Source: an uncultured Clostridia bacterium (lineage in GTDB: Bacteria > Bacillota > Clostridia > Christensenellales > Borkfalkiaceae). Taken from it: a DNA stretch of 64,000 bases. Shown piece by piece: positions 9,605-59,079 of the stretch (its first letter is position 1; each line of letters opens with the position of its first letter). A program made the translations under genes and the position numbers. Where the stretch lies: positions 1 through 64,000 of the forward strand of contig CANQOY010000002.1 of the NCBI GenBank assembly GCA_947625605.1, given 5' to 3'. Under the pieces are notes generated by a model. The model was not told where the DNA came from. It saw only the letters and a list, made by a program, of their open reading frames with translations, and ran no database searches.

Positions 9605-11321
9605 TTTTCCCCACAAGGAAGATCGCGGCAAGCAGGGCGGCGGCAAGGCCGACGTAGAGCGCCCCGCCCGTCAGACAGAAGTAGACGGCGTAGCAGAGCA
9701 GGAGAGCGGAGACCGTCTGCCCGAGGGCGTACAGAGCGGCGCGCTTCCAGCCGAGTTCACGTGCCGAAGCGGAGATCGCGGAGACGCAGGGCGAGCAGGC
9801 GAGGATAAAGACGGCGAAAGAGAACGCGCTCGCACCCGCGTACGGGAACGTGCCGTACAGCAGCGCGATCGCTCCCGCAACGTTCTCCTTTGCGATCAGC
9901 CCGGAGAGAGCGGCATACGCGATGCGCCAATCGTGCATGCCGATGGGCGCAAACATCCATTTGAGCGCACCGCAGATGCGGGCGAGCATGCTGTCCTCCA
10001 CCGCGCAGAGCGCAAAGGTAAAATCGAAGGAGGAGAGCAGCCACGACGCCAAAAAGAAGGCGAGGATGACCGTACCCACCTTTATTATAAACTGTTTTAT
10101 CTGAAAGAGCAAGGATTTGAGCAGGAAAATCGGGCGCGGGACCTGTAACGGCGCAAGTTCCATCACGAAGGAGGGCATCCGTTCCCTTAAAAGAAGCGCG
10201 GCGATCACGGAGAGCCCCACGCCCAACGCGTAGAGGAGCAGGACCGCGAGGAAGGGATTCTGAAAGAAGGAAGCGGAGAGCGCGAGATAGACGGGCAGCT
10301 TGGCGCTGCACGAGATATACGGGAGACAGAGGATGACCCGTCTCTGCATCCTCTTGTCGTCGAGGCCGCGCGTCGTGAGGATGGCGGCGGCCGTACACCC
10401 GAACCCCATGAGCAGGGAAAAGACGGCCCGCCCCGAGAGGCCGACCTTGGAAAAGAAACCGTCCGTGAGAACGGCGAGGCGGGAGAGCAGGCCGCTCTCT
10501 TCGAGCAGTACGAGAAAGAGATGCAGGAGCGCGATCTGCGGGAGGAAGGAGAGCACGCTCGAAAGGCTTTTGAGGATCCCGTCCTGCACGAGGCTGCGCA
10601 CGACGGGAGAGGATATGCCCGCGGCGATCCCGCCGAGATATTCCGAGAACAGCCATTCCACGCCCGATTTCATGAGATCCCCGGGCATGCCCCCCGCAAA
10701 CGTCAGAAAGAAGGCCGCAACGAGCAGCAGGAAAAAGAACGCGATCCCCCATCCGCTCAGCAGGAACCGGTCCGCCTTGGAGAGCCCTTCCCGCACGGGA
10801 TGGAAGAGATCGGAGATGTCGGCGGAGGGAACGGCCGCCGCGGGCGCTCCGAGCGCGCGGGCAAGCGACTGTTTGAGCCCCCTCTCTTCGGCGGATAACA
10901 CGGGGATCCCGAGGCGTGCGGAGAGCGCGGCGGCGTTCAGCTTTCCTCCCGCCCGCTCGAAGAGTTTGCGCTTGGTGAGGACGAGCGCCGCCCGCCGTTT
11001 CCCCTTGGTCAGCTCCGCCATGAGGGGCAGAAAGCGCTCCACCGTGGCGTATTCGGAGACAAAGAGCAGGAAGTCCCCGCCGTGCTCGGCGACGTAGCGG
11101 CAGGCGAATTTCTCCTCCATGCTCCGCCCTTCCGCGGTGTAGATGCCGGGAAGATCGACGAACGCGACCTCCTTCCCCGCGAGCGTCGCGTGCCCCTCGC
11201 GCGCGTCCACCGTGACGCCGTGCCAATTCCCAACGCGGGCATGCCCCCCTGTAAGGCGGTTGAAGAGGGTGCTCTTCCCCGCATTCGGGTTGCCGACGAG
11301 AAGGACCCTCACGTCCGCCAC
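9381..11321 (-). CDS. feoB: Ferrous iron transporter FeoB
   Basis: GTPase GNPNAGKST, DLPGIY, plus FeoB core (LLMGFGCTAAAILTTRGL, SGLIAKENVAGAIALLYG). GTG start 11321 inferred; C-terminal ~75 aa overlap the RluA-family gene in another frame. Confidence 0.9.
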   Translation of the reverse strand: MADVRVLLVGNPNAGKSTLFNRLTGGHARVGNWHGVTVDAREGHATLAGKEVAFVDLPGIYTAEGRSMEEKFACRYVAEHGGDFLLFVSEYATVERFLPLMAELTKGKRRAALVLTKRKLFERAGGKLNAAALSARLGIPVLSAEERGLKQSLARALGAPAAAVPSADISDLFHPVREGLSKADRFLLSGWGIAFFFLLLVAAFFLTFAGGMPGDLMKSGVEWLFSEYLGGIAAGISSPVVRSLVQDGILKSLSSVLSFLPQIALLHLFLVLLEESGLLSRLAVLTDGFFSKVGLSGRAVFSLLMGFGCTAAAILTTRGLDDKRMQRRVILCLPYISCSAKLPVYLALSASFFQNPFLAVLLLYALGVGLSVIAALLLRERMPSFVMELAPLQVPRPIFLLKSLLFQIKQFIIKVGTVILAFFLASWLLSSFDFTFALCAVEDSMLARICGALKWMFAPIGMHDWRIAYAALSGLIAKENVAGAIALLYGTFPYAGASAFSFAVFILACSPCVSAISASARELGWKRAALYALGQTVSALLLCYAVYFCLTGGALYVGLAAALLAAIFLVGKNREKIRRRTTKLSQRFHRRDLRAGLDVLPHAAQTEGDPRQRPKGGGELPLGSGRRGVLLHDARAGGEGGVSHRL

Positions 11322-11533
11322 ACGCGCACACCCTGCGCCGTCTCGCGGTCCATGGCGATCTTCCCGCTCCCCGCCTGTACGATCCACACCCGACGGAATG
11401 GGGAGACTTTGAGCACGAGCAGTTTGGCGCCCGCATGGATCTGCAAGGAAAGCAGGCGTTCGCGGAGCTCGCGTTCCAGCTCTACTTTGAGGACGACCGC
11501 CCGTTCCCCGCGCTTTAAGTCCGAGATGTTCAT
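11309..11533 (-). CDS. feoA: FeoA family protein
   Basis: 74 aa, MNISDLKRGERAVVLKVELERELRERLLSLQIHAGAKLLVLKVSPF...: FeoA SH3-like fold pattern; directly upstream of feoB. Confidence 0.85.
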   Translation of the reverse strand: MNISDLKRGERAVVLKVELERELRERLLSLQIHAGAKLLVLKVSPFRRVWIVQAGSGKIAMDRETAQGVRVWRT

Positions 11534-11973: not shown

Positions 11974-14358
11974 TCATTCTTTTCTGTTCTTCTTGCCTTT
12001 GAGCTTGGAGAGATCGACCTCTTCCACGCCCTTTTCGGAGGGCTTGATGACGAAGAGCAGGATGACGGCGATGAGCAGGACCGCGGCGATGGAGAAGAAG
12101 ATGATCGCGAGGCGGTTGTTCTGCAACCACTTGCTCTGCCCGGGGATGGTATCCAGCGGGTTGGTGATGTTGATGACCGTCCATGCCTCTTCTTTGAGAT
12201 TCTTGATCTTGCCGTCGCTGACCACGACCTTGACGAGATAGAACCCGCTCTTCTGGGGACGGAAACTCAACTTCGAATCAGGATCCCACTCATAATCGTT
12301 GAACGTCAAATCCCATTCTTCATCGTCCTCGGAGACCTCGTCGTTGTAGGGCTCGATCTCGGTGAGCGCCTCCCACTCCTCGAACTTGGGGATATAGTCG
12401 TCGAGCTCGTCGAAGAGCTTGCCGTATTCGGGGACCCCGCCCTCGGGCGCCTTGTCGGTGTCGAGATAGTACAGGGTGTATTCCTTCGTGTATCCTTCGA
12501 GCGCAACGATGTCGAAATCGCTGATGGTGTAGGTCTGGTCGCGGAAGCCGTCCGTCGGCTTCTTCACGTCCTCGATGGAGGGGCCGTCGTAACGGATGGT
12601 GAACGTGAATTCGGGGATCCCCTCGATCTTCCAGACGTTGGAGGAGGTCACCTTGACGGGAAGGTCGCCGTTTTCCTCATAGTACTCCATGGCGTTCCCG
12701 GCTGCGTCCTGCGCGACGATGCGCATCTTGTAGTCGCCATCTTGATCCACTTCGATGCGGAGGTTGTTGTATTTGAGGGAAGTCGCGCTCGAAGCGGTGG
12801 CGCCGACCGCCGCCTGCGGCTTTTGATAGTAGATGCTGAAACTGAGGTTGCGGTAGTCCGCATACTTGCTGGTGATCAGGTTGCGGAGCGAGGGAAGATA
12901 CAGATACGCCCCGTCGCCCGCGCTGACGGCGCTTGCCGCCTCGGTGAGAGCATCCTGATAGGCGCCCAGAACTTCGTTGTAATGTTCTTCGCCATCCGTC
13001 GGGACATTGGTCTTGGTGGCCTCATCCGCGGTCAGAATGGTAAAGACGGGGCCCTTCGCTTCGAGATCTGCCACGAGGTAGTCATAGGCATTTTCGCCCT
13101 CGCCCAGCTTCTCCACGACGGTAACGTCGGGATCCTTGGCCGCATACCAAGAGAGATAGGCATAGGTATCGTCGAACGTCTGGTCTTTCAGGAGGAAGCG
13201 GATGGAGAGATGGGTGACCTCGCTCTCGCTGCCGTCGTTCGGGGGCGTGATATAGTCGTTTGCGGCGAGCTTCTTGTAGTTGTGCGCCTCATCCTCCGCA
13301 ACGTCCTTGCGGTTGGGCTTCACATAGCCGACGCCCTCTTCCTCATTCGCGAAATAGTAGCTGCGTTCCACCTGAACGGAGTCGCGGATGACGTCGATCG
13401 CCTGATAGGAGGGGCTGAACTGCTTGCCGAGGCGGAGCGAATAGAGCGCCTCGTTGAGCACGAGGACGGGACGCGCGTCGTCCTCCACCCGCCCGCTCTC
13501 GTTGACTTTGAGGGACTGCCCGTTCAAGTCGTGCAGGAGCACTTCCTGCTTTACGTCGCTCGCGGGATCGGATGCGGGCAGATCGGGAAGATCGGCCTCG
13601 AACGTGATGGGCGTGGAGGGCACGGTGGCGCTGGCGCTGTAATATTGCAGGAAGTAGCCGCCGATGTTGGTGAACTTCCCGACAAGGACGGGATCCGCCT
13701 CGCCGCTTGCGAGGTAGACGTTGAACTCGCCGATCCCGCAATCCGCGTCGTCGATGCTGAGGGTGAACACGGCGGTCTTGTCCGCAAGCGGCTTTTTTTC
13801 CGCTTTAAGGCCTTCGCGATCGTAGGAATCGTGCACCGCGACCGCGAAACCGTCCTCCTCACTGTTCGTAAAGACGAGAGCGTTCGTCGTCTTGCCGTCC
13901 TTGGTGATGTTCTCCTCCGCACTGTCGAAGGAGATCGTGAGCGTCGTGAAGCGGACTTCGGGGAAAGAGAAGCTCATGTGGAAGAACTTCGCAACGCCGG
14001 GATCGACAAGCCCTTCCGCCGTCTCTGCGGCCGCAGCGGCCTCTCCGCCCTCTTCTTCCTCCTCTGCGGGAAGCGAGGACTCAAACCATTTGAGCGCAAG
14101 ATTGCGGTGGAAGTGCGCCTTCCCGCCGTCCGCAAGGTTGAGGCGGACATAGTACGTCTCGTTCTCGTCCGCACCCTGGCTCGGCCTGTTCGTGTCTACG
14201 GTGCCGCCTGTGCCCGCCCAAAAGACGGAAGTGGGGGCAACCGCCGCCGCGTCGGCGGAAACGCCGGCGGGCAAAAAGCCGATCGCAAGGCTCAGAGAGA
14301 GTGCAAACAGCAAGATGAGGGAGACGATTGTAATCAAACGAAGCTTTATTTTACTCAT
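11974..14358 (-). CDS. Large secreted, C-terminally membrane-anchored protein of unknown function
   Basis: N-terminal signal peptide (LILLFALSLSLAIGFLPAGVSADA), ~750-aa ectodomain, C-terminal TM helix (LAIIFFSIAAVLLIAVILLFVI) and basic tail KGKKNRKE. Confidence 0.85.
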   Translation of the reverse strand: MSKIKLRLITIVSLILLFALSLSLAIGFLPAGVSADAAAVAPTSVFWAGTGGTVDTNRPSQGADENETYYVRLNLADGGKAHFHRNLALKWFESSLPAEEEEEGGEAAAAAETAEGLVDPGVAKFFHMSFSFPEVRFTTLTISFDSAEENITKDGKTTNALVFTNSEEDGFAVAVHDSYDREGLKAEKKPLADKTAVFTLSIDDADCGIGEFNVYLASGEADPVLVGKFTNIGGYFLQYYSASATVPSTPITFEADLPDLPASDPASDVKQEVLLHDLNGQSLKVNESGRVEDDARPVLVLNEALYSLRLGKQFSPSYQAIDVIRDSVQVERSYYFANEEEGVGYVKPNRKDVAEDEAHNYKKLAANDYITPPNDGSESEVTHLSIRFLLKDQTFDDTYAYLSWYAAKDPDVTVVEKLGEGENAYDYLVADLEAKGPVFTILTADEATKTNVPTDGEEHYNEVLGAYQDALTEAASAVSAGDGAYLYLPSLRNLITSKYADYRNLSFSIYYQKPQAAVGATASSATSLKYNNLRIEVDQDGDYKMRIVAQDAAGNAMEYYEENGDLPVKVTSSNVWKIEGIPEFTFTIRYDGPSIEDVKKPTDGFRDQTYTISDFDIVALEGYTKEYTLYYLDTDKAPEGGVPEYGKLFDELDDYIPKFEEWEALTEIEPYNDEVSEDDEEWDLTFNDYEWDPDSKLSFRPQKSGFYLVKVVVSDGKIKNLKEEAWTVINITNPLDTIPGQSKWLQNNRLAIIFFSIAAVLLIAVILLFVIKPSEKGVEEVDLSKLKGKKNRKE

Positions 14359-14517: not shown

Positions 14518-15225
14518 CTATTGCGGCTTGACCGCCCGCGCGACGTCGAACAGCTTCCACGGCGTCTCCTCCTTGGGCGGCTCCGCCATGAAGCGCATGC
14601 GCTCTTTGAGAATGGGGTGGGTGAAGGAGAGCGAATAGGCCCACAGCGCAAGTTTGCCCTTCTGCGCGCGCTCCCCGCCGTAGCGCATGTCCCCGTACAC
14701 GGGGTGCGCGATGCCCGCCGTCTGCACGCGGATCTGGTGGCTCCTGCCCGTGTGCAGTTCGATCTCGGCGAGGGCAAGCCCCCGCTGTTCTTCGAGGATC
14801 CGATAGTCAAGCACGGCGAGCTTTGCGCCGTCCGTGCCGGGCGTGGAGAGGTACACCGTGTTGTTGACGGGGTTCTTTTTCAGCCAATTCGTGAGCCGCC
14901 CCTCCTTCTCGTGGGGCGCGCCGTTGAGCACGGCGAGATACTTCTTGCTGAAATCCCCCTGCCGCATCTGTTCGGAGAGCCGCGCCGCCGCCTTGCTCGT
15001 CTTGGCGAACACCATCACGCCGCCCGTGGGGCGGTCCAGCCGGTGCACGAGGCCGAGAAAGACGTTGCCCTTCTTGCCGTACTTCACGCGAAGATATTCT
15101 TTGAGAAGATCGAGAAGATTTTCGTCCCCGCTCTCGTCGGGGCAGGACGCAAGGTTCTGCTCCTTCAATACGACGAGGAGATGGTTGTCCTCGAAGAGGA
15201 CGGTGGGTTCAAAGGGTTCGCTCAT
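14518..15225 (-). CDS. RluA-family pseudouridine synthase
   Basis: MSEPFEPTVLFEDNHLLVVLKEQNLASCPDE...VHRLDRPTGGVMVFAKTSKAA...LHTGRSHQIRVQTA; start trimmed from 15480 to ATG 15225. Confidence 0.9.
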   Translation of the reverse strand: MSEPFEPTVLFEDNHLLVVLKEQNLASCPDESGDENLLDLLKEYLRVKYGKKGNVFLGLVHRLDRPTGGVMVFAKTSKAAARLSEQMRQGDFSKKYLAVLNGAPHEKEGRLTNWLKKNPVNNTVYLSTPGTDGAKLAVLDYRILEEQRGLALAEIELHTGRSHQIRVQTAGIAHPVYGDMRYGGERAQKGKLALWAYSLSFTHPILKERMRFMAEPPKEETPWKLFDVARAVKPQ

Positions 15226-16078
15226 GAATGTAAATACCTCCGGCGCCGCAGGGAAGCGGGATGCCCTCCTCCGTGGGAAGGCCCACCTCGTACGATTCGA
15301 TCGTGCCCTTGCGCCCTTTGAGGCACAGGGTGAGAAGATTGGAGAGCACGGCGGGTTGCAGGCCCGTCGTGTAGCTGTTGATGAGGAAGAAGAGCGGATC
15401 GTCCGAGAGAAGCTGCGCGCAGAGGGAGACAAAGGGGTAGATCTCCGTCTCGATCTTCCACATTTCCCCGCCGGGGCCACGGCCGTAGGAGGGCGGGTCC
15501 ATGACGATCGCGTCGTAGCGGTTGCCCCGCCTCAACTCGCGGAGGACGAACTTTTTGCAGTCGTCCACGAGATAGCGGATGCCGCCCGAGATCCCCGAAA
15601 GCCGCGCGTTTTTTCCCGCGCGCTCAACCATGCCCTTGGCGGCGTCCACATGCACGACCTCCGCCCCCGCCTTCGCCAGAGCGACCGTCGCGCCGCCCGT
15701 ATAGGCGAAGAGGTTGAGGACTTTCACGGGACGGCCCGCATTGCGGACGAGCGCGCCCATCCTCTCCCAGTTGACGGCCTGCTCGGGGAAGAGGCCCGTG
15801 TGCTTGAACCCCATGGGCCGGACGCGGAAAGTCAGGTCCTTGTAGGAGATCTTCCAGCTCTCGGGGAGGGGCTTTCTGTACTCCCAGCTCCCGCCCCCCT
15901 TTTCGCTGCGGCGGTACACGGCGGCGAGATCCTTGCGGGCGAAGAGATCGGTCTGCGCCCCCCAGATGACCTGCGGATCGGGCCTGAGCAGGACGATCTC
16001 GCCCCAACGTTCGAGTTTATACCCGTCTCCCGTCGCTATGACGCTGTAATCCTTCCATTCGTCCGCCAAACGTATCAT
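15209..16078 (-). CDS. Class I SAM-dependent methyltransferase (RlmI/RlmK-like)
   Basis: VLNLFAYTGGATVALAKAGAEVVHVDAAKGMVERA, DAIVMDPPSYGRGP; start ATG 16078 placed from promoter. Confidence 0.87.
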   Translation of the reverse strand: MIRLADEWKDYSVIATGDGYKLERWGEIVLLRPDPQVIWGAQTDLFARKDLAAVYRRSEKGGGSWEYRKPLPESWKISYKDLTFRVRPMGFKHTGLFPEQAVNWERMGALVRNAGRPVKVLNLFAYTGGATVALAKAGAEVVHVDAAKGMVERAGKNARLSGISGGIRYLVDDCKKFVLRELRRGNRYDAIVMDPPSYGRGPGGEMWKIETEIYPFVSLCAQLLSDDPLFFLINSYTTGLQPAVLSNLLTLCLKGRKGTIESYEVGLPTEEGIPLPCGAGGIYIHERTL

Positions 16079-16084
16079 GTAGCT

Positions 16085-16113
16085 ATTATAAAGGTTTGCG
16101 CGCGGATTGTAAA
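16085..16113 (-). promoter_or_regulatory. Promoter of the methyltransferase gene, apparently leaderless
   Basis: TTTACA-N17-TATAAT; 6 nt from -10 to ATG 16078. Confidence 0.65.
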
Positions 16114-16162
16114 GTAAAACCGCGCGCAATTCCGAAATTTTCCGGGGAAACCCTCCGCTTCC

Positions 16163-17833
16163 CTATTTTGCGTTGCCCTTTCCCTGCCTTCTGAACACCA
16201 AAACGGTGAAGCTGTGCGGCGGGAGCGCCGCCGTGCGCGGCGCCGTGGGAGCGATCTCCCTCGGCACGATGCGATCGGGCGCCTCAGGCGTGTTCGCGGC
16301 GTCGAGCGGCGCATCCATGCAGATGACGCGGGTGAGCTCTCCGAAGTCGAAGTCCCCCTCCGCCTCGGCCGCGATCTCCGCGCCGCCGGAATTGATGATG
16401 CGCACGAAAGTGAACCCCTCGCGCGAGGAGGCGGAAACGCGAACGCTCTCGTCGTCCGCAGAGGCATTCAAGACGAAGTCTCCCGCGGATTGACGGCATA
16501 GCTTTTGGACATGGTACTGCCCGGAAGCGTAGGCGTGCGCCGCGTCAAAGGAGACGAGGGCGGGCAGACGCTGTGTGCGCCCCAGCCGCGCAAAGAGGGC
16601 CGCGTCCGCAGGAGACGGGTAGAGATCCGCGCCCTGCCCGCATTCTGTGAGGCGGACGGCCTCCCCGAGCGCATGGGCCCATGCGTCCGCCTGCGGGTCG
16701 GAAGCGCGCTCCGCGGGAGCGCGGAACGGGATGAGTTCGACGGAGGCGTCCCTTTCGCGGATCTCCCCCGCAAACCGCACGAAGCGCGCAGCGCGGGCGT
16801 CGTCGGTCGGGACGGCGATCGCTTTGAGCCCGAAGGCCGCGGGGTGCCCCAGCTCGGCGCGGATCTTCCCCCACATGGTGTCCGTGCCGCTGTTCGCAAA
16901 TTCGATCAGATCGAGCGCGTCCTGCACATAGGGCTCCAAGTCCTCTTCGAGGTCTTTTGAGCCACCCATGCCCAAGACAGGCACGGCAGTTGCGCCGAGA
17001 TACTCCGACAGGCGGAAGCATTCGAAGAACCCGATGCGCAGCGTCTGCCCGTCATGCGGATCGCCCCCTCGGAGCGCGTAGACGTTCCACCGATACGGCC
17101 TGCGCAGGGGCTCCCCCACCGAATCCTTCCAGCGGAAGCGGTTTTCCGCGCTGTCTGCGGCCGCCGCCCCCGGGAAGTACAGAACGTCCGGTTTGAGCTC
17201 GGTGAGCATCGACGCGAGGTCGCGGCGGAAGTACCCCAAAATCGCGTCCTCGGGCGTCACGGAGAAGCAATCGGCGTGTACCATGCCCGCCTTCGCGAGC
17301 GTAAAATGAAATTCCGCGCCCGAAACGTCCGCCTTGCTCTTGCACTTGAAGGAGTAGCGGCGCCACTTGCCGTCCGGCTTGACTTTCACCTTGCCCTCGA
17401 TGGCCGCGTTCTCTCCGTACAGCCCCGCATAGGCCGCACCGCGGTAGTCATACGAGCGCAGAAAGAAGGAGATCCTGTACTCCGTGCCCCGTTTGAGGGA
17501 GACGCCTCCGAACGCGCGGTTGCAGATCCCCGCGCCGTCCTCTGCGGCGACGACGCGCAGATAGTGCGGGTTCTCCGCATGCAGGGGGCGGTCCGTTTTG
17601 ACCTTTATCGCCGCGGCCGCCGCGTCCGGGAAGGGCACCCACGCGTATCCGTCCGGGGGCAAGACGACGCATCTTCCGTTCTCCGCGCGCACCTCCCGCC
17701 CCTCGAAGGCGGGATTCTCCAACAGCTCGGCGCAGAGGCCGCCGTCTATGGCGCAGTTCACGTCCTCCAAAACGACACCCGTCCCCCGCTTCGGGGAGGG
17801 CTGCCTTCCGTTTTCCGAAATAAAAATTTTCAT
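16163..17833 (-). CDS. GH51 alpha-L-arabinofuranosidase-like protein, probably catalytically degenerate
   Basis: 'VLGMGGSKDLEEDLEPYVQDALDLIEFANSGTDTMWGKIRAELGHPAAFGLK' and 'YASGQYHVQKLCRQSAGDFVL' match GH51 architecture, but GNE and nucleophile segments are missing (see findings). Confidence 0.75.
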   Translation of the reverse strand: MKIFISENGRQPSPKRGTGVVLEDVNCAIDGGLCAELLENPAFEGREVRAENGRCVVLPPDGYAWVPFPDAAAAAIKVKTDRPLHAENPHYLRVVAAEDGAGICNRAFGGVSLKRGTEYRISFFLRSYDYRGAAYAGLYGENAAIEGKVKVKPDGKWRRYSFKCKSKADVSGAEFHFTLAKAGMVHADCFSVTPEDAILGYFRRDLASMLTELKPDVLYFPGAAAADSAENRFRWKDSVGEPLRRPYRWNVYALRGGDPHDGQTLRIGFFECFRLSEYLGATAVPVLGMGGSKDLEEDLEPYVQDALDLIEFANSGTDTMWGKIRAELGHPAAFGLKAIAVPTDDARAARFVRFAGEIRERDASVELIPFRAPAERASDPQADAWAHALGEAVRLTECGQGADLYPSPADAALFARLGRTQRLPALVSFDAAHAYASGQYHVQKLCRQSAGDFVLNASADDESVRVSASSREGFTFVRIINSGGAEIAAEAEGDFDFGELTRVICMDAPLDAANTPEAPDRIVPREIAPTAPRTAALPPHSFTVLVFRRQGKGNAK

Positions 17834-17904
17834 CGTCGATCCTCCGTTTTCCGTCCATGGTCCGCCTCTCCGGCGGGAGCGGACGAAACTCATTCAGACG
17901 AAAC

Positions 17905-19587
17905 TCAATCAATGGAATGCGCGATATAGGTGATGTGGTCCGCGGCGCGTTCGAGATTGCCGACGAGGTTGATGAACACGCCCGAATTCTGCGGCTGGCA
18001 CTTGCCCTCGTTGAGGCGCTTGATGTGCCGCTCGACGAGCGTCTTTCTGTCGGCGTCGATCTCGTCCTCGTAGGCGTCCACGGCCGCAAGAGAGGACTTA
18101 TCCCGTTCGAGAAACGCTTTCAGCGCGGCGGCGTACAGCTTCCCGATGCGGGCATACATCCCCTTGATCATCCCGATAAATTCGTCGGAGAACACGAGCG
18201 CGTCCTCCACATAGTGATAGGTATACTTCGTCACGTTGTCGGCGAGCTCCGCGATCCTCATGATGTCGTTGAGCACATAGTGCAGGGTGGAGACCGTCTT
18301 TTCCTCCTCCAAGGAGAGGGAGGAGCCCGAAAGTTTTACGAGATAGGAGACGCCGCGCTTGTTCGCCTCCGCAAGTTCGCCGATCATGGCGCGGATGCGC
18401 TCGTTTGCGGATTCGTCCTTGGCGAGGAAGGCGGCAAAGGAGGCGTCCAGCGTGTCCATGGAAAAGGCGAACACTTTGCCCGTCTCCTGATAGAGATATT
18501 CGAGGGCGACGGTCGGGCTGCGCATGAGGCGGTCGTCGAGATCCTCGAAGAGCGCGCTCGCCGCGGCGGCCGTCCCCTTCTCGGGCACGAGCCGCTCCGC
18601 GATCCACACGAACACCTTGACAAAGGGCAGAAAGAGCAGCGTATTGACGACGTTGAAGAGCGTGTGGAAGAAGGCGATCTGCATCCCCGGGGCCATGTCG
18701 AGCTCCCCGAGCTTCATGGAGCCCGCGGGGATCACGCCCGCGAGCACGGTATCGGCAAAGTCCCTCCACAGGACGAGGACGATCATGAAGATGACCGCGC
18801 CGAAGAGGTTGAACAGGAAGTGGATGAGCGCGGCGCGCTTGGCGTTGCGGGAGGCCCCGAGCGAAGAGATGAGCGCCGTGACGCAGGTGCCGATATTCGA
18901 GCCGATGATGATATAGAGCGCGGAGTTCCCGCCGCTCCCGATGACGAGCCCCGCCGAGACCATGGTGAGGATGATGGCGTTGACCGCCGTAGACGACTGC
19001 ACGAGCGCCGTCACCGCAATGCCGATGAGCAGGAGCAGCACGGGATTTTTAATGACTTGGAGCACCCCTTTGACGGCCTCGTATTCGGGGGTGCCCTTCC
19101 CGAACGTGAGCGCACCCGACATGAATTTGAGTCCGACGAAGATCAGCCCGAACGCAGCGATGATGTTGCCGACGGTGACGACCTTTTCCCGCTTGGAGAA
19201 CATCGTCATGAGCACGCCGACCGCCGCGAGGCAGACAAAGACGATCGTGAGGTCGGACCCGCCGAGCGCGATGACCCATGCGTTGAGCGTGGTCCCGATG
19301 TTCGCGCCCATGATGATGGCGGTCGCCTGAAAGAGCGTCATGATGCCCGCGTTGACGAGGCCGACGACCATGACGGTGGTGAATGCGGAACTCTGCCCGA
19401 GCACGGTGACGGCCGCCCCGATCCCGACGCCCGCAAAACGGCTCTTGGCCGTCCTGTTGAGCATCGTCTGCAACTTGCCGTGGGCGAGTTTCGTCATGTT
19501 TTCGGAGAGCATCCGCATGCCGACGAGGAAGGCGCCCATGCCCCCGAAGATCTGCAAGATGATTTTAACGATATCCCATGCGCTCAT
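17905..19587 (-). CDS. Na/Pi cotransporter family protein with C-terminal PhoU-like domain
   Basis: GMGAFLVGMRMLSENM, GQSSAFTTVMVVGLVNAG, VQSSTAVNAIILTMV inverted repeats; helical C-terminal region. Confidence 0.92.
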   Translation of the reverse strand: MSAWDIVKIILQIFGGMGAFLVGMRMLSENMTKLAHGKLQTMLNRTAKSRFAGVGIGAAVTVLGQSSAFTTVMVVGLVNAGIMTLFQATAIIMGANIGTTLNAWVIALGGSDLTIVFVCLAAVGVLMTMFSKREKVVTVGNIIAAFGLIFVGLKFMSGALTFGKGTPEYEAVKGVLQVIKNPVLLLLIGIAVTALVQSSTAVNAIILTMVSAGLVIGSGGNSALYIIIGSNIGTCVTALISSLGASRNAKRAALIHFLFNLFGAVIFMIVLVLWRDFADTVLAGVIPAGSMKLGELDMAPGMQIAFFHTLFNVVNTLLFLPFVKVFVWIAERLVPEKGTAAAASALFEDLDDRLMRSPTVALEYLYQETGKVFAFSMDTLDASFAAFLAKDESANERIRAMIGELAEANKRGVSYLVKLSGSSLSLEEEKTVSTLHYVLNDIMRIAELADNVTKYTYHYVEDALVFSDEFIGMIKGMYARIGKLYAAALKAFLERDKSSLAAVDAYEDEIDADRKTLVERHIKRLNEGKCQPQNSGVFINLVGNLERAADHITYIAHSID

Positions 19588-28666: not shown

Positions 28667-31600
28667 TCAGTGGAAGTCGAACTGCGGCACAACGCCGTTC
28701 TTCCCCTCCGAGATCTCCGCAAGCTGGCTCTCGTACGTGTTGGAGCTGTCGTTTCCGTACATGTAGAAACGGAAGTCCTGCGAGCCCGCGGCGAGAGGCA
28801 GGAGCCGACCGATGCCGCCCATATCCCCCTCCGCGTCCGAGATCTCGCTGATGTTGATCCGATACTCGTGCAGATCGCTGCGCTCTTGATTGATCCCGCC
28901 GAGCGAGACCTGCGCGTAGTTCCTGCCGCCGCCGTACAGCGCAATGCCGCCGTGGACGTACTCTTTATTGCCCGACTGCTCGATGATCGTCCCGAAGCGT
29001 GCGGGATCCTTCGTGCGCATATAGGTGAGCATCCCCGCGATATCCAGCTTGATCTGGGAAGAAGTGGAATCGATGAGCGTGCTGCTGTCCACGAGGGCGA
29101 GCTCCTTCCAATCGTACAGGCGCACGTCTCCTTCGAGGCGCAGGACGGTGGCGAAGGACGTCCCGCCCGTGCCGATCCAATCGCCGAACGTCTCGGAATA
29201 TCGGCTGCCCGGCGAGAGCACCTCGCCCGCAAAGTTGGATTCCACGCCCACGCAGAAGAGGCCGCTCCGTTCGAGCACGCTGTCTGCCAAGGTGACATCC
29301 GTCATGACGTACATGGTGTAGAAATAGTCGTCGTCGAGATAGTTGTTCGTCTGCGTGTCGTACGCCTTCCCGTTTCTGTCCACCAGAACGGGCTCTCTGC
29401 CGAGGGCCGCGCCCGCACGCAGCGCCCTGTTCGCGCCAGTTTTGAGGAGGAACTCCCTGCCCTGCGAGAGGATGCAGCCTTCGATGTGCACCGTGATGCG
29501 CTCTTCATCGCAGCCGTTGTTCTCGGAGAGCGAATCGATGAAGTATTTCTCGCCGCTTCTGTTCCCGCCGTACGCGCGGACGACGTTCCTGCCATTGCGG
29601 ATGCGGCAATTCAGGACATTCACGTCCGCATTGATTTCGAGCACGGTGCCGACGTTGTTGAGGCGGGTGAGGTCGTAACTGCCGTTCTGGGATTCGAGCG
29701 AGCTGTCACTGCAACCGAGCAGGACGGTGTTGTAGATGGTCACGCCGTCGGTACGGGCAAGGAAGGAGATGTTGTCCTGCCCCGCGACGGAGGCGATCCC
29801 GCCCAAGTTGACGAAGAAGAGCGGGCCCATGAAGATCTGGGGCGTGCCCGTGTTGTCCTGCGCGTGGGCGAAGAGTTCGGCGTTGATGGTGTATCCGTTC
29901 CCATAGACGTCGTTCTTGAACTCGATGACATAGTTGACGTTGGCCTGCGCCGCCGCGCCGATATTCTTATAGTATTCGACGTTGTAGGTGGAGCGCATGG
30001 TGTGGAGCATGTTCTTGCGCTCTCCGATGGGAAGCGGCGTCACGTTGTCGTCCAGTGTGCCGAGGAGAATGTCTCCGCCCAGCACAATGGGGCTACCCAT
30101 GTCCGTCTCGTTGAAGAGCTGGGTGCTCGTGCGGACCTCCACGGCGTCATTGTCAACGAGGAGGGTGATCGAGGCCGTAATGTTTTCGCCGTAATCCTCG
30201 TTCGCCTTCCACGAAGCGGTGATCGTGACCGTGCCCTTGCCGCGGACGTCGAGGAACGCACTGCCGTCCTCCACCACGGCGTTCTTGTCCGTGTCGTCGC
30301 GTACGACATCGGCGATCGCGGGATCGCTCGAAGCGAAGTCGAGATCCTCTGCGCCGTCGATGCGGTCCGCCACGCTGAAAGTGAGCATGTCGAGCGCATA
30401 CCTGTTCGCGATCTTTTGCCCGTCCGCTCCGTAGCGCCACCCCGCGACGGCGAGCTTGCGCGCAAGGCCGACGGAGGTGTTGTTCCCGAACTGCACCGCC
30501 GTGACCCGATTGACGACTTCCACTTCGATCTCCTGTTCGTCGATCAGCGTCGTATCGTCTTGAACATTCCCGTTGTACGCGCCGACCACGAGGATGAAGC
30601 CGGTCCGCTCCACCGCCGTAACGGTGCAGACCGCGCCGCCGTCCTCCCCCTCGGGATCGAATTCGCGGCGGATGGCGAGGTCGTCGTCCGCATTGATGAC
30701 GTCCCACTTGAACGTGATGCCGCGCGCGGAGACCCCGTCCGGCACCGCAAAGAAGGAGATCGGCGTATCCTTCAAGACGTTGATCTTGCCGCTCTCCGTC
30801 TGCGCAGGCAGATCGGTGTCGATATGGAAAGTAAAGCCTTCTCTGCAAACCATGAGCGTGCGTTCATCCTCGCCCGCGCGGATATCCACTGAATAATCCT
30901 GCCCGTCCGCGGGGAGCGTAAGCGTCACGGCATAGCCGTTCGCAACCCCATCCACGGGTTTGATATCAGCCCCAACGTCCTCCGAATCTGCACATGTGAC
31001 CTCGGGCATGGTATCGGCCTCCACGTAGAAGAACGCTTCGGTCTCGTCTTCGCCGATGACGATCTTATTCTGCGTGCCGCCGTTGACGGTGAGGGTTCCT
31101 GCGGGACGGGCAACCTCGATCTTGACCTGTTTTTCGATGGGCCCGAAGGCGCCGTCTTCGAGGCGGACCGTGAACTCCGTCGTGCCGCTGAACGGCAACA
31201 GCAGGGTGCCCGTGGCGCGGTCCACATCCACAAATCCGCTCGTCGCCGCCCCGATCTCCGGCCTCAGATAGCCGTTGGGGGAGAGCTTGGCCGCGTAGGT
31301 GTAGCGGCCCGTTCCCACTTGCGCCTGATAGCCGTCCCCATCTTCGGTCAACAGGTTGTTCTCGCGGCCCGCATCTTCGGCGGCGTAAAGGAACCAATCG
31401 AACGCATAGGGCTTGGAGGAGCCGACGATGACGGTGATCCCGTCCTCAAAACCCCCGTCGTGGCTCACGGCCACAACGCGCGTCACGCCGACGCTCTTGG
31501 GGTAGATCTTGCCGTCTGTCACCTCGATCTCCGCCTGTTGGTCGTTGCCCTCTATGGCGTCGAAGCGGTAATCGAAAGTGCGGTCGCTCGCGTTTGCGGG

Positions 31601-31801
31601 CTGGACGGAAGGCGTGATCTCATAGGGCGTCTCGTAGTCGGCAAGGTCGATGCTGATCGTATCCCCGGGGTAGCGTTCGAGGATCTCGATGCCGTTGGCG
31701 GAGATCTGCACGTCGAGGCTGGCCGCGTTGACGGCGCTGAACACGACGAACACAAAGAGCAGCGGAAGCACCAGGATCAGTGCGGTAATGTTTTTTCTCA
31801 A
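28667..31801 (-). CDS. Large secreted protein (1044 aa) of unknown function, Ig-like and probable beta-helix regions
   Basis: N-terminal MRKNITALILVLPLLFVFVVFSAVNAASLDVQISANGIEILERYPGDTISIDL; repeated Ig-like pattern; 'GNGYTINAELF...INADVNVLNCRIRNGRN'; start overlaps the permease stop (ATGA). Confidence 0.82.
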   Translation of the reverse strand: MRKNITALILVLPLLFVFVVFSAVNAASLDVQISANGIEILERYPGDTISIDLADYETPYEITPSVQPANASDRTFDYRFDAIEGNDQQAEIEVTDGKIYPKSVGVTRVVAVSHDGGFEDGITVIVGSSKPYAFDWFLYAAEDAGRENNLLTEDGDGYQAQVGTGRYTYAAKLSPNGYLRPEIGAATSGFVDVDRATGTLLLPFSGTTEFTVRLEDGAFGPIEKQVKIEVARPAGTLTVNGGTQNKIVIGEDETEAFFYVEADTMPEVTCADSEDVGADIKPVDGVANGYAVTLTLPADGQDYSVDIRAGEDERTLMVCREGFTFHIDTDLPAQTESGKINVLKDTPISFFAVPDGVSARGITFKWDVINADDDLAIRREFDPEGEDGGAVCTVTAVERTGFILVVGAYNGNVQDDTTLIDEQEIEVEVVNRVTAVQFGNNTSVGLARKLAVAGWRYGADGQKIANRYALDMLTFSVADRIDGAEDLDFASSDPAIADVVRDDTDKNAVVEDGSAFLDVRGKGTVTITASWKANEDYGENITASITLLVDNDAVEVRTSTQLFNETDMGSPIVLGGDILLGTLDDNVTPLPIGERKNMLHTMRSTYNVEYYKNIGAAAQANVNYVIEFKNDVYGNGYTINAELFAHAQDNTGTPQIFMGPLFFVNLGGIASVAGQDNISFLARTDGVTIYNTVLLGCSDSSLESQNGSYDLTRLNNVGTVLEINADVNVLNCRIRNGRNVVRAYGGNRSGEKYFIDSLSENNGCDEERITVHIEGCILSQGREFLLKTGANRALRAGAALGREPVLVDRNGKAYDTQTNNYLDDDYFYTMYVMTDVTLADSVLERSGLFCVGVESNFAGEVLSPGSRYSETFGDWIGTGGTSFATVLRLEGDVRLYDWKELALVDSSTLIDSTSSQIKLDIAGMLTYMRTKDPARFGTIIEQSGNKEYVHGGIALYGGGRNYAQVSLGGINQERSDLHEYRINISEISDAEGDMGGIGRLLPLAAGSQDFRFYMYGNDSSNTYESQLAEISEGKNGVVPQFDFH

Positions 31802-34627: not shown

Positions 34628-35335
34628 TTAGACCATGTTTGTTTCGTAAATATAATACAGAGTGTAAACAATTTCGTCCCAAGTAAGCAGTCCTTTGCCC
34701 ACCGCAACCTTGAAGTATGCCCACGGTGCAGCGTAGAACATCTCTTCGGGCATGAGGGCCTTGAAGTCCTCATAGGTGTAGAGACCGTACTTCTCAATGT
34801 CGGCTTGCATCTTCGCCTCGTCGTACTTCATGGTGCCTTCCTCGTACTCGAAGTAGTTCACGAAGCCCCTGCTCTGTCCGGGGAATGCGGTGAGCGCAAG
34901 TATACCCTCTGCAACCGTGTTGAGGTTGCCGATCGTAACGGGAGAATAGATCTTGACGATTTCTCTCTTTGCCGAACCGCCTACGAGAACCGTCGAACTC
35001 TCTACCGCTTCGCCGTTCACATACTCTACGCTTGCGAACCGATGGCCGATATAGTCCCCCAAATTCTTCGCGTTAATGAACACATAGCCGCCGACATCGA
35101 GGTCGAAGAACGCATGCTCGTTCGCAATCCGTAATTTCGTCCCGTTCGCAAAATGGAGCGTGATAACATCGGAGGGCTGTGCGGGCAGATTTGCATGCGC
35201 ATTAAAGAGAAGTTTTGCCCCCTCATACTTGCCGGTATAGTGATTGTAGACCAAGAGCACGTCGTCCATCGTCAGATCCTCGACCTTCTTCTGCGTGCCG
35301 TCGGCAAGATTGACGAGCGTTCCTTCGACAAGACA
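34628..35335 (-). other. Hint (hedgehog/intein) domain plus 82-aa C-terminal tail of the giant lipoprotein
   Basis: Cys1 after GW; block-A-like 'GTLVNLADGTQKKVEDLTMDDVLLVYN'; block-B-like 'LRIANEHAFFD'; block-F-like 'REIVKIYSPVTIGNLNTVAEGILAL'; no C-terminal His-Asn + Cys/Ser/Thr. Confidence 0.72.
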
Positions 35336-38300
35336 CCAACCTGTATCCTCAGTTTCGATCGAAATGGATACATCGCCCTCCGGCATAATGAATTCTTGGT
35401 CTTCGCTTGTGGCAACAAGTCCGTCCACATTCGAAGTCACGGAATTCAAAGCAGTATCTGTTTTTAAGGTTATCGTGAGCTTGACCGTCGCACCCGCGGG
35501 CACCTGGAATGAAGAACCCTGCTTAACCGCTTGTGTCTGACCGCTGAACGTAACGGAGGCCGTCGAGCCGTTTTCCAACGTCACCGGCGAGAAAGACAAA
35601 GTAAACGTCTTAACCTCCCATTGCGCATAGAGGTTGAGCGCACCCCCTGCGAAATCGGCTGCATTGAGCGTCGTTTTTTCGCCATTTCCGTTTGCATCCG
35701 TAGTCCAATGTGTGAAGTTGTAGTTTTTACGCTCGGGAACATATTCCGTGAGCTCAAATTCTTCGAGCCGATCGCTTCGGATATTGACGGTGAGAGTTTC
35801 TTCTCCTCTGATGACAGCCCCGTCTCCGTTCGCATGGAATACCACGGTATACGTTGTGACCTCTTCGGGCAATTTTTGGAATTTCCCGTAGAGCTTCAAT
35901 TTGCTGCCCACTTCGAGATACTTGCTGTATTCTTCTGCCGAGATATTTTTGATCTCCTGCGTACAGCTTTCATCGGTAAACCAACCCATAAACTCGAATC
36001 CATCGAGGGTGGCGTCTCGCAATTCCATGCCCTTCTTCGGGAAGGCGGAGGAATTGTTGGGATTGGGCGTACCCTCGGGGGTCACGGTCTCATCCCCCGT
36101 CTCATTCTTGTAGACGTAATCGAATTCAATACCAAACGTGGAATCGTCGGTGATCCAGCCGCCGTCCTTCGAGGTATACGTGCCTGCCGCAAACGGCTGA
36201 GGACCGGACAGGGAGCCATTGTTGCTCCATATCTTGCCCGAAGTCGATGCGGTATAAGACTTCCATTTGACGCTAACGGCAGTGATCAACTCATATGAGG
36301 TCGCTTTCGCCGTGGTCACGATCAACGTCGCGCCGTCCCCAGTCGTCTCGACAAGGCCACCGAGTTCTTCCGCTTCCAATGTGCCGTTGACGACAAGTTT
36401 GCCCGCCCCGAGCTTTTGTTTCGCACCGTTCTCTGTTTCATACTTGGGCGCAGCGACATCGCCTGTCGACGTAGCGGGATCGACAAATTTATCGTCATAG
36501 ACGAAAAGCTTCTTGATCTTAAACGTAACATCTTTATCAATGGTAATCGAGCCGCCGGGAAGGATCTTCATATCCTGCGAAGTTGAAGTTACCGTGGCAG
36601 GCGCTCCGTTGGTATGGAAAACAAAATTATGATACCACGACACGGGGAACATGAGTCCTGCCGTACCGACATCAACGCCGATAACGGTCAACGTTAACGC
36701 ATTGATCGTAATCGATCCATAGCAATCCCACTTCGTTACTTTTGACTTAACATCATACTTTACTGAAACATAAGAATCGCTGAGCAGTTGAACAAAATGC
36801 CTCGCTCCGCCGATGAACTTCACGTCTGCCGTATTGTCATGGCTGCTTGCATACATGTTAGCATGAGCCAACAGGGTAGCACCGCTGTGCACCTCGTAAG
36901 TGCTTGTGATGTTCTGCAAATAGAACCGATTGAACGGAGCCGCAACCATGTAGTCGTAAATCGCCGAGAACTTGGTGCCGCCGCGGTGCTCTACGACGAC
37001 GAAGGGAATCGTCGTTGTGCCGCTTTGGATCACGACCTTCGAGCCGTTGTCTGCCGACTCTTCCTCAATGAAACCGTAAATATTCATCGTGCCCGTCGAG
37101 GTGAGTTTTGCGTTTGCCCCCAAAACGAGCTGCGCATACCCGGAATTAGTCTGACCTGCGGGACTTGCTCCCCCGCCGCCACCCGACGTGATCCCGCCGA
37201 TGTTGAGCGTCCCCGCATTTGTGAGCTCGATCCCCGCCGGAACCGTCACGGTCAAGTCGCAAAGATTTTTATCTCCGAGGGAAGAATACGTCTTATTGAG
37301 CTGTGTCGTACCATTCAGACCGGTGGTGTTCGTCTCTGCCCCGCTCTCCCCTACTTTTCTTGCCGTATCTTGTGTCGTGTCATACGGCAAGAACAATGTC
37401 ACGCCTGCTTTTACGGTATAATGGCCGCCTTCTACGCTGTAACCCGCTTCTTCGGCAACTTCCTTGGTCGCAAACGCCGTATCGTTCTTGACGACAATTT
37501 CGCCGTCTGTCGCCGTTGCAAGCGCGTCCTCGATCGTATAGAGCACGCCACTGTACTCCACCGATTTGAGCTTATACACGATTGTGAAAGTCTCGTTTGC
37601 GAGCGTATAATAGCCGCCCTCATCATTCAAGGTGGGCTTGAAGACCGCGAGATAGGTGCCGCCCACGGTGAACTCAACGCCGTTCTGATAAACCGCGGAG
37701 ATATGACTCTTCACATACGCGAGTTCCTCCTCGGTGAGAACTCTGCCGTTCTCGCCCGTGAACGAGTACACAAGCTCCACGTCTGCAAGATTTTCTTTGG
37801 CCACGCCGAAATCCGCTTCCAGCGCTTCCGCACGGACGGTGATTTTCTCCGATCTTGCCGTAAACGTCACCGTAACGGGATCGCTGTTTTCATAGTTGGC
37901 CTCGTCCGGATTGTAATACACGCTAACAGAGTTTTGACCCGCATCCACCGAACGTTCGCCGTCCTCAGCCAAGTAATAGCCATCCGGCAGAGGTACTTCT
38001 TTGAGCTTCATATTCAGGAAGCGCGCGATTTCGCCGAGACTGCTCAATTCCGCAACCGCCTTGGCCTTGTTGATGGTGATCGTGAACGTTTCGGTCGCAC
38101 CATCGTAATTCGTCGTCCCCTCGACAGTGAGCGTGACCGTGTAGGTGTTGGCGTTCTTGATCTCCGTAGCATCGTTTGTGACTTCTCCGAAGTTGGAAGT
38201 CGCCTTGCTCCAATCGATATCGAACACCTCGGCCTTATACGTCGCACTGTAAGTGTGATCATCGCCGCCTTTCACAAGATCGTCAAAGGTGATCTTGCTT

Positions 38301-41300
38301 GTGTCGATGACCGCCTGCGCCTTATCAATGACGAATTGCAGGGTCACCGCATTTTCATTTTCATGATCTTTCCACTTGTAGTTAGCTCCTTCCCCTTCGG
38401 TGAGAGTGAGCGTGACAGGGTAGTTGTTCACATCCGTGCCGCCGTTATTTGCGGTAACCTCATAGATTTCGTTGCCCGTGACATCCGCGGTTTGCGGTTG
38501 ACCGTTATAAGTCTTATGCGCGATCTCAGGCAGCTCAACAACGGCCTTCTCGATCTTGATCGTGTATTCCAGACGTTCCGAGAGCCCGACGACTTCGTAG
38601 TTCTCGAACTGCTTGAATTGATAACTGACGAAATATGTCCCCGCATTCTTGAACGAAGGGCCATCATGCTCCATGGGCTCAAGGTTGGAATTATAATAAG
38701 TGTACGTGACCGCGTCTTTCGGCTGCTCGTCATTGAAAAATCCTTCGAGAACGATGCCGACGTTGTGCGCCGTCTTATCATAGGTCCAAGTCGTGGTCTC
38801 GGGAAGTTTCACGGTAAGCTTTGCCTTGTTGATGGTGATGGTGAACTCTTGCTTCGTGCCATTCCAATTCTCGGAATCAGCGACGGTGAGCGTGACCGTG
38901 TAGGTTTTGGCGTTCCTGATCTCCGCCGCATCGTTTGTGACGGTTCCGAAGTTGGAAGTCGCCTTGCTCCAATCGACCTCGTAGGCCGCGCCCTTATACG
39001 TCGCACTGTAAGTGTGATCATTGTCGCCCTGCACAAGTTCGCCGAAGGTGATCTTGCTTGTGTCGATGACCGCCTGCGCCTTGCCAATGACAAAGTTGAA
39101 TTTCAGAACGGAAGGAGTCGCCTCTTCCTCTTCGTCGCTCCAACGATAGTTCTCCGCGTTGGTAATGCTTACCTCAACAGGATGGGTGCCGGCATTCGTC
39201 TGCACGTTGTCCTTTATGGACATGGTAGTCGCGTCGAACGCGTTGGGCGTGTAAGTCTGCGCATTACCCGTGAATGTGAAGGAGGTCAAATTCTCGGTGG
39301 GCTTTGTGAGCGGCGCCTTGTCGATGACGAATTGCAGGGTCAGAGGTTCACTGTTGCCGTTCGACCAGCGGTAGTTGGCGCTGTCTTTGAGCGTGAGGAC
39401 GACGTCATAGCTGCCCGCATCCGTTCCGCCTTCGTTGGTTGTGACATTGTAATCATCGGTATCGGAAACGTTAGCCTTTTGCTCTGCCTTATTATAGGTC
39501 GCATGCGAGATCGTGGGAGCCGTCACCTGCGCCTTAGCGATGATGATATTATATTGCCCTTCCGCATCGTTATAGTTTTCGTTGCCCGTGACGCGGTAGT
39601 TGACGGTATGGGTGGCCGCATTCGAGAACTGCGCGACCGTCTCCGTATATTGGTCGCCATTCTCTTTTTCATTATAAAGAATGGTGAATCCGTCGTCGCC
39701 TATGGCATGCACGGTGATCTCCACGCCCTGATCGCCCTTGTTGTAGGTGTAGGACTGTTCGGGCGCCTGTACCGTAAAGTTGGCCTTTTCGACATTGATG
39801 TCGAAGTGTCTCTTGGCCGTCTCGCAGTTGGGTGCGCTGATCTGGACATACACGGTATACTTGCCCGCATTGCGGATGGTGTAAGTTTCCCCAAATACGC
39901 CGTGATCATCGCCGATGCGATAGAGACAGGTGATCTTCTCCGCGGTAACGCCCTCCGCCGTGGCCTTGACGGGGAAGAAGTGCTCCTGCGCGTCATAGAC
40001 AAACGAAGTTTCGCTCGCATCGGGAAGGGTGATATTGAAGTCGGAAGTATCCAAAATGAGCGAGATCTGATACACCAAGTTGAAATTAGCGGTGACATCC
40101 GTCCCGTCATGGAGGATCTTGTAGCTCCCCTCTTTCCATTGGAAAGTCTTTCCGAACTGTTCGACATTCTGCGCTGTATATTCATCCGCGGCAGCCGATT
40201 CGGCGTTTGCAAAGACGACCGTGCCCACAAACTTAAAGCCGAGGCCGTCGTCACCGAACGCGGGCGTGAAGCTCCAATTTGCGCGGTCCGCCCACTTATG
40301 GCTCCCGTTCAAGCTGAGGGAGAAGGGACGCGGCGAAACGGTGAAGGAATGGGTGATCGTGCCGCGCTCGCGCGTTCCGCCCGACACGGTCAACGCGTAG
40401 TCGCTGTTTTCTTCAAAGGTGATGACCGTCTCATATTTGCCCACGGAGAAGTAGGGCTCGTTCGTCTCATAGGCCTCGCCGTTCTTGCGCAGAGCAACCG
40501 CAAAGGTCAGTTCCTTATCGAGAATGGATTCGCCGCTGAGCGTATACCAATTATAGGGCTTCTTGTCTTCGGCATAAATGGACCAACCGCTCTCGACGGT
40601 GAGGGTCACCTGCCGTGCGGACACGGTAAACTCTGCCGTGGAGGCCTCCTTCCCGCCATAGACATAGGTGATATCATAGTTGGATGAAGTGAGCCCCGTA
40701 GCGGCGAGCGAATACTCGGCCGCATGCAGGCGCTCGGACTTCAAGCTCTCTTCGGTATAGCTCTGCCCGTTCACGGTGTAGGTGAGAGTGCCGAGGTCGG
40801 CCTCCTCATCGTTTGCAACAAGGCCTTCGAGTATATGGGAGAGCTCGACAAAGCGGTAGCCGTAGGTGAAATCGGCAAAATCCTCCACTTCGGTCACTTT
40901 GACGGTAAGCGCCGCCTTTGCGACCTCAAAGGAACCCTCGGAATAGCTGATGGTGTAGTCATCGGAGGTATATCCGCCCGCGACGACCGTATAACTGCCC
41001 GCCTCGAAGAAGTCGCGCGCTTCATATTCGGCGCCGTCTTTTTTATAATTAAATGTACGCGTACCGCCGAGCGCCGTTTCGCTCTCACTGTTCTTGAAGC
41101 CGTCGAACGTTACGACGGGCGTGACCTTGTCGCCATACGTCAGAGAAGATACCGCCACGGTCACGGTGAGGGGCGCCTTCTCGATGGTAAAGGAAGCGGA
41201 CTGTACGGTGATTTCATAGTTCTGCGCCGTCGCGGAAGCCGTCGCGGTGTACGTCCCCGCATGGAAGCCTTCGACGGGCTTTCCATCGTCTCTCGAATAG

Positions 41301-51600: not shown

Positions 51601-51725
51601 GAAAACTCCTCTCCCCCCTCGTTCTTCTCGACGGATCTTTCGAAGATATGATTCTCCTTCCAGAATGCAACGATCTCCTTCTCGCGCTCCACAAAATCAA
51701 GCGAAGTGTCTACCTTTTTGTACAT
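48609..51725 (-). CDS. ileS: Isoleucyl-tRNA synthetase
   Basis: FFDGPPTANGKPHIGHVLTRSIKDAIPRYRTMKGYHVLRKAGWDTHGLPVE; KMSKHKGNVVDPWTVL; QTRGWFYVLL; 1038 aa. Confidence 0.96.
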   Translation of the reverse strand: MYKKVDTSLDFVEREKEIVAFWKENHIFERSVEKNEGGEEFSFFDGPPTANGKPHIGHVLTRSIKDAIPRYRTMKGYHVLRKAGWDTHGLPVELEVEKSLGLDGKKQIETYGIEPFNKKCKESVWKYQSEWEKMSERVGYWVDMEHPYVTYHNDYIESVWWALKEMHKKGLLYKGHKIVPYCPRCGTALSSHEVAQGYKDVKETSAIARFKVAGKENTFILAWTTTPWTLPSNVALCMNPAEDYVEIAAEDGAHYILAEALAGKFFENFEVVDRRKGSEYEGTMYEPLFDWAKGSFKEKAYYVVCDGYVTLTDGTGVVHIAPAFGEDDYRVGKKYRLPVVQLVNERGRFDARCPELDGLFAKDADKIILDMLKGRGLLFKKLPYEHSYPHCWRCDTPLLYYARASWFIEVTKVKERLIAANRSVNWMPESIKEGRMGNFLENVIDWGLSRDRYWGTPLPVWVCEDCGEIEVIGSRQELCEKTGAPADTELHRPYVDQLFCTCKKCGGKMKRTPEVIDCWFDSGSMPFAQYHYPFENKDLFEETFPADFISEAVDQTRGWFYVLLVISTILFDRAPFKNCISLGLVTDKNGIKMSKHKGNVVDPWTVLNKQGADAVRWYFYTTSAPWLPSRFGEEAVSESQRKFQGTLWNTYAFFTLYAEIDGYDPSRYDIRTCKLSLMDRWVLSKLNTLVGEVDRLLAAYNITDSARAIQDFSDELSNWYVRRGRDRYWGSGMTEDKAAAYTTLYTVLVTLAKLIAPYTPFMAEMMYRNLVPAFYPAAPISVHLCDYPVADMVWVNEALEAGMEDVLKVVELGRSARAAGNLKNRQPLAEMLVASDRALAIEGELEAVTLDELNVKKLKKITGAEDLVSYTLKPQLRTLGPKYGKKLRRITEFLSTCNAKEVVEAIRNGGSYTFDDGEVTLLEEDLQIFTSSAEGFATAQGYGITVALDTHLTEELLDEGAERELVSKIQTMRKDAGFEVTDRIAVYHVAEGRAKKMLERAAFAKDVLAERVEAGTAEGFTRTLDINGDPATVTLVKL

Positions 51726-58987: not shown

Positions 58988-59079
58988 TCGGCTCTATCGC
59001 ACAACCCGGGCCTGCCGCACATCACGGCGGCGGGCTCTCTTTTTTGACGATCAAATTGGATTTTTAAGGAGAAAAAATT

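Follow-up and report, generated by a model that had tools for sequence, protein, structure and literature searches.

Repeated loss of the active site in a GH51-type arabinofuranosidase orthologue retained across a genus of gut Clostridia

In the GH51 structure MgGH51 from Meripilus giganteus (PDB 6zps; PMC7604909), a CBM4-like sandwich is inserted after the first strand and is followed by the barrel and a C-terminal sandwich. Arabinose is contacted by Glu23, Asn231, Asn350, Glu351 (acid/base), Tyr402 and Glu429 (nucleophile) (PMC7604909). Retained homologues lacking catalysis have been described in other systems. Among the fungal Ssd1/Dis3L2 pseudonucleases (PMC8097288), an orthologue lost its active site repeatedly and independently, in part without any duplication, and its remaining domains were conserved; the ancestor was inferred to have been bifunctional, and a function other than nuclease activity is documented. 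Herbivorous beetles have plant-cell-wall-degrading pseudoenzymes (PMC6549527), which are glycoside-hydrolase-type pectinases retained without catalytic function and accumulate as paralogues within expanded multigene families. A search of the open-access literature returned no described GH51 pseudoenzyme. To our knowledge, the glycoside-hydrolase pseudoenzymes that are known are mostly duplicates.

The gene studied here lies at 16163..17833 (-) within a window of 64,000 nucleotides, the whole stretch of DNA analysed, from a gut bacterium. It encodes a GH51-type pseudoenzyme of 556 aa (MKIFISENG...RRQGKGNAK*), counted from the ATG at 17833, with a Shine-Dalgarno sequence (GGAGG, 17841..17845 (-)) approximately 7 nt 5' of this start. 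An alternative in-frame ATG at 17893, 20 codons upstream, finds no support in the orthologues, which nearly all start with MKI or MKV. No N-terminal hydrophobic signal was seen when the protein sequence was read by eye. A Na/Pi cotransporter gene with a PhoU-like C-terminus and conserved synteny is located upstream (17905..19587 (-)), while a SAM-dependent (rRNA-type) methyltransferase (15209..16129 (-)) and an RNA pseudouridylate synthase (14518..15303 (-)) follow downstream. The reading frames of these two downstream genes (14518-16129 (-)) adjoin and overlap in the ORF list. The preliminary description of this DNA, made from the letters alone, had reported a frame intact throughout and neighbours other than carbohydrate genes, and both statements agree with the uninterrupted frame and the neighbours listed above.

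The GH51-like scaffold proposed in the same description was recovered by several approaches. Two Pfam matches were above cut-off, Alpha-L-AF_C (1.3e-8) and ASD1_dom (8.6e-16), the latter partial and covering positions 3-153 of 239 (residues 210-348), so that the protein carries both domains of the GH51 fold. The best solved relative by phmmer was MgGH51 (6zps, 2.8e-34). An AlphaFold model of the window protein was confident (pLDDT 89.1, pTM 0.90), and Foldseek aligned this predicted fold to MgGH51 with a TM-score of 0.85 (E 1.8e-42). Alignment to the orthologues and MgGH51 placed the first strand and linker at residues 1-46 (17696..17833 (-)), where Glu23 and a DGGL.AELLEN.(A)F motif are kept, followed as in MgGH51 by an N-terminal CBM4-like beta-sandwich at residues 47-198 (17240..17695 (-)). 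The first half of the (beta/alpha) barrel, residues 199-338 (16820..17239 (-)), overlaps the ASD1_dom match and strongly keeps FRRDL and E..Q..LD..EFA......WG..R...GH. The last barrel segment (ADAWAHALGEAVRLTECGQGAD...LVSFDAAHAYASG; 16511..16690 (-)) was placed by alignment, and the C-terminal beta-sandwich and tail (16163..16510 (-)) by the Alpha-L-AF_C match.

Between the two parts of the barrel, most of the catalytic machinery is missing. Alignment to MgGH51 and 68 full-length orthologues showed that the conserved V/L/I-G-N-E-Q-W is V-P-T-D-D-A in the window protein, and that the stretches SDEHFY and YAGEYAAH have been deleted, with approximately 100 residues gone. The acid/base site (V-P-T-D-D, residues 341-345, 16799..16813 (-); V-G-N-E-Q in active orthologues) reads PTD where all 68 full-length orthologues have GNE, the Asn350-Glu351 pair being replaced by Thr-Asp. 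What remains of the catalytic segment (16691..16819 (-)) has 43 residues versus 126 in active orthologues, and the catalytic His, Tyr402 and the nucleophile Glu429, found in a GEY/GEF context, are deleted with the rest. The column of Asn231 holds Asp, leaving Glu23 as the only one of the six arabinose contacts of MgGH51 that is kept. Because N, E, W, H, Y and E are invariant at these columns in 68 of 68 full-length orthologues, chance or misalignment is excluded as the source of the loss. The preliminary description was thus correct that both catalytic glutamates are gone, with the minor corrections that an Asp occupies the acid/base column (T343-D344) and that Glu23 of the -1 subsite is retained. 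With the catalytic half of the barrel removed, the window protein would be unable to hydrolyse arabinosides by the GH51 retaining mechanism, as judged from its sequence. As a homologue of an enzyme without the required catalytic residues it is a well-supported GH51 pseudoenzyme, and belongs to a set that arose more than once.

Of 103 genomes from the genus of the window bacterium, 95 had the gene. We extracted 90 orthologues, which fell into two sharply distinct sets, 71 with a complete active site and 19 without. The active set consisted of 68 full-length proteins of 641-660 aa and three cut by contig ends. The inactive set, which includes the window copy, ranged from 475 to 601 aa with the frame intact. 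Full-length orthologues (e.g. G034, 654 aa) share the locus, the domains and approximately 45-50% identity with the window protein; they differ in their complete active site and roughly 100 more residues, and most come from genomes that also encode arabinose isomerase and further GH51/GH43 proteins. All 19 inactive copies were without Asn350, the catalytic His and Tyr402. A Glu occupied the acid/base column in only two of the 19, where the GNE motif was absent, and persisted at the nucleophile column in four. One further orthologue, in genome G036 (L033:2160-3715), was frameshifted at approximately 2540-2585, which decay or an assembly error could explain. Among the best 80 homologues in named genomes, every sequence from outside the genus that covered the sites kept both glutamates. 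Shine-Dalgarno-like sites were retained equally often in inactive (16 of 19) and active (58 of 71) genes.

In both sets the gene usually adjoined the Na/Pi cotransporter gene, and often also the same methyltransferase and pseudouridine synthase genes. This shared neighbour indicates that the copies are orthologues in place and not a duplicated paralogue. No other GH51 copy was found in the window genome. In contrast to the paralogues of the beetle families, then, the orthologue itself was inactivated. The named relatives of these loci were Clostridia MAGs, many with isolate names containing 'Lapin'; from these names the hosts of the relatives appear to be rabbit and, in one case, bank vole.

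The single sequence read for the preliminary description could not reveal that sister species have repeatedly lost the active site along with arabinose catabolism. We used IleS as an unlinked marker (over 30 kb away from the gene within the window, and in relatives frequently on a different contig). On the IleS tree the inactive state needs seven changes, at least five of them forced by well-supported branches, and placing the inactive genomes in a single clade was rejected (p_AU 6e-59). The tree of the neighbouring Na/Pi gene needs ten changes, at least seven forced, and likewise rejected a single clade (p 2e-58). A single origin of the inactive form is therefore not tenable. The inactive lineages comprised a main clade including the window, G105, G025, G091/G120/G036, G019/G082, G069 and, on the Na/Pi tree only, G124. 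The two trees differ in places, for example in the active pair G012/G095, which falls inside the main clade with IleS only, and this disagreement leaves the exact count of losses uncertain. The GH51 gene tree groups the inactive copies near one another, a grouping that we read as long-branch attraction since both the unlinked and the linked marker reject one clade.

The loss of the active site tracked that of arabinose genes. L-arabinose isomerase was present in four of the 20 genomes whose copy is inactive or broken versus 61 of the 70 whose copy is active (Fisher 2.8e-8, shared ancestry ignored). Genomes of the inactive set had 0-2 ASD1 matches to other GH51 genes versus a median of 3, and 0-2 GH43 genes versus a median of 5 (p 2.7e-10 for GH43, shared ancestry ignored). 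Phylogenetically independent pairs changed in the same direction in about three of five cases on the IleS tree, with none opposite, and in about five of seven on the Na/Pi tree, pairs too few on either tree for formal significance. From this association we conclude that catalysis was lost in lineages that had largely stopped using arabinose. All 26 genomes without the isomerase AraA retain the GH51-type gene, while all eight genomes without the gene have AraA; no gene remnant was found in the latter where the Na/Pi locus could be read.

The preliminary description had considered the gene maintained rather than decaying, and the dN/dS values bear this out. Pairs of inactive copies gave 0.13 (G114-G118), 0.19 (G114-G009 and G019-G082), 0.21 (G002-G122) and up to 0.31 (G009-G092), compared with 0.07-0.28 for active pairs and 0.05-0.19 for neighbouring genes in the same inactive pairs, consistent with purifying selection after the loss of catalysis. 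Values were higher (0.31-0.39) in comparisons with the window copy and in the distant pair G025-G105. No indels were observed in 581 codons among G114, G118, G009 and G092, and neutral simulation over such distances predicted approximately 8-16 stop codons. Regional constraint was inverted, with values mostly of 0.04-0.39 in the shell and up to about 1 in the former catalytic segment. Of the positions invariant in the genus, inactive copies kept 28 of 38 in the N-terminal sandwich and 16 of 19 in the C-terminal sandwich, versus one of 40 in the catalytic segment. The two sandwiches and the first half-barrel thus stay constrained, and the catalytic segment is near-neutral and shrunken. The window branch had an omega of 0.47 (0.32-0.65) overall, faster than its sisters, with 0.31 (0.16-0.54) in the N-terminal domain (first 199 columns) and barrel parts indistinguishable from 1; erosion of the window copy may have advanced further than that of its sisters. 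On most of the evidence, the inactive gene is maintained by selection.

We consider it likely that the gene is an orthologue of a cytoplasmic GH51 alpha-L-arabinofuranosidase that lost catalysis in step with arabinose catabolism and is still selected for a non-catalytic function of its shell. The ancestral enzyme would have been genus-wide and bifunctional, and the catalytic half of its barrel would have been removed through in-frame deletions and substitutions as arabinose catabolism disappeared. The outer shell (CBM4-like N-terminal sandwich, first half-barrel and C-terminal sandwich) would carry the remaining function, which was probably present already in the active enzyme, because the same shell survived several independent losses. 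The logic is that applied to the fungal Dis3L2/Ssd1 proteins (PMC8097288), which differ in being unrelated eukaryotic RNA-binding nucleases with a demonstrated second function. Of the forms that the function of the shell could take here, the likeliest is cytoplasmic binding to a glycan or a partner protein; the binding or regulatory role that the preliminary description suggested for the window protein is likewise one that we infer. Since the gene has been wholly lost in eight genomes, it is not essential.

The main rival to selection for a shell function is that the gene is on its way out, under weak selection only (e.g. against misfolding or for operon structure) since the loss of arabinose use and shrinking by in-frame deletions. 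Gradual loss would fit the window and other inactive copies evolving approximately twice as fast as active orthologues, the progressive fall in length from 601 to 475 aa, and the frameshift in one relative. We nevertheless regard it as unlikely, as the frame is kept in 19 of 20 inactive copies at divergences where neutral drift would have introduced the stop codons given above, omega in the shell is well below 1 and near the levels of the active enzymes' own sandwiches, and the gene is never missing from lineages without arabinose isomerase.

We assign very low probability to two further explanations. The protein could be a new enzyme, with a remodelled pocket performing other chemistry with different residues; the well-folded prediction for the window protein and the persistence of Glu23 and of an Asp in the acid/base column of this copy are in keeping with this idea. 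However, constraint is lowest in the former catalytic segment, which also varies from lineage to lineage, so that no new pocket residues common to the lineages can be made out in it. Equally improbable is a single origin of the inactive form followed by horizontal transfer between species. The closeness of inactive copies in the GH51 gene tree speaks for such a transfer, but long branches would be expected to produce such joining, the deletions are not the same in different lineages, and the inactive copies adjoin each host's own Na/Pi gene, the tree of which rejects one clade.

If selection for a shell function is the correct reading, an ordinary enzyme acting on plant polysaccharides would have a second role in the cell, and the kept shell shows which parts carry it. 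We see an even chance that, in a single-copy bacterial glycoside hydrolase, a hidden second function in the cytoplasm, non-catalytic in nature, long predated the loss of catalysis; the genus would then offer at least five independent natural experiments that removed catalysis alone and spared that function. There is also a consequence for annotation: as the C-terminal and ASD1 matches pass the Pfam cut-offs, family assignment credits arabinofuranosidase activity to genomes apparently unable to use arabinose.

The Na/Pi neighbour was considered as a functional link to phosphate uptake. Although the pair is kept in most genomes, a block of approximately 2.2 kb intervenes between the two genes in about 20 relatives (L057, L041, L064, L068 and others) and, in those of them that were read, contains a PhoR-like sensor kinase; in other genomes the GH51-type gene is absent beside the Na/Pi gene. 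We therefore do not claim the link, and the neighbour may be incidental. In L250-L252, PstB/PhoU-like ORFs and/or a response regulator with a sensor kinase flank the Na/Pi gene, which suggests a phosphate-regulon locus.

Other reading frames of the window, all (-), were also examined. Those at 9757-11436, 11974-14358, 28667-31801 and 58975-62034 (559-1044 aa) had no Pfam or NCBIfam match at 1e-3; the one at 11974-14358 has, by eye, a signal-like start and a C-terminal transmembrane segment. A 2982-aa ORF at 34628-43576 contains MBG (YGX type) and Listeria-Bacteroides (Flg_new) repeat domains and is likely a large surface protein. The IleS of the window (48609-51725) matched the mupirocin-resistant MupA/MupB models at approximately 1000 bits, below their cut-offs of 1900, and probably belongs to the eukaryote-like IleS class.
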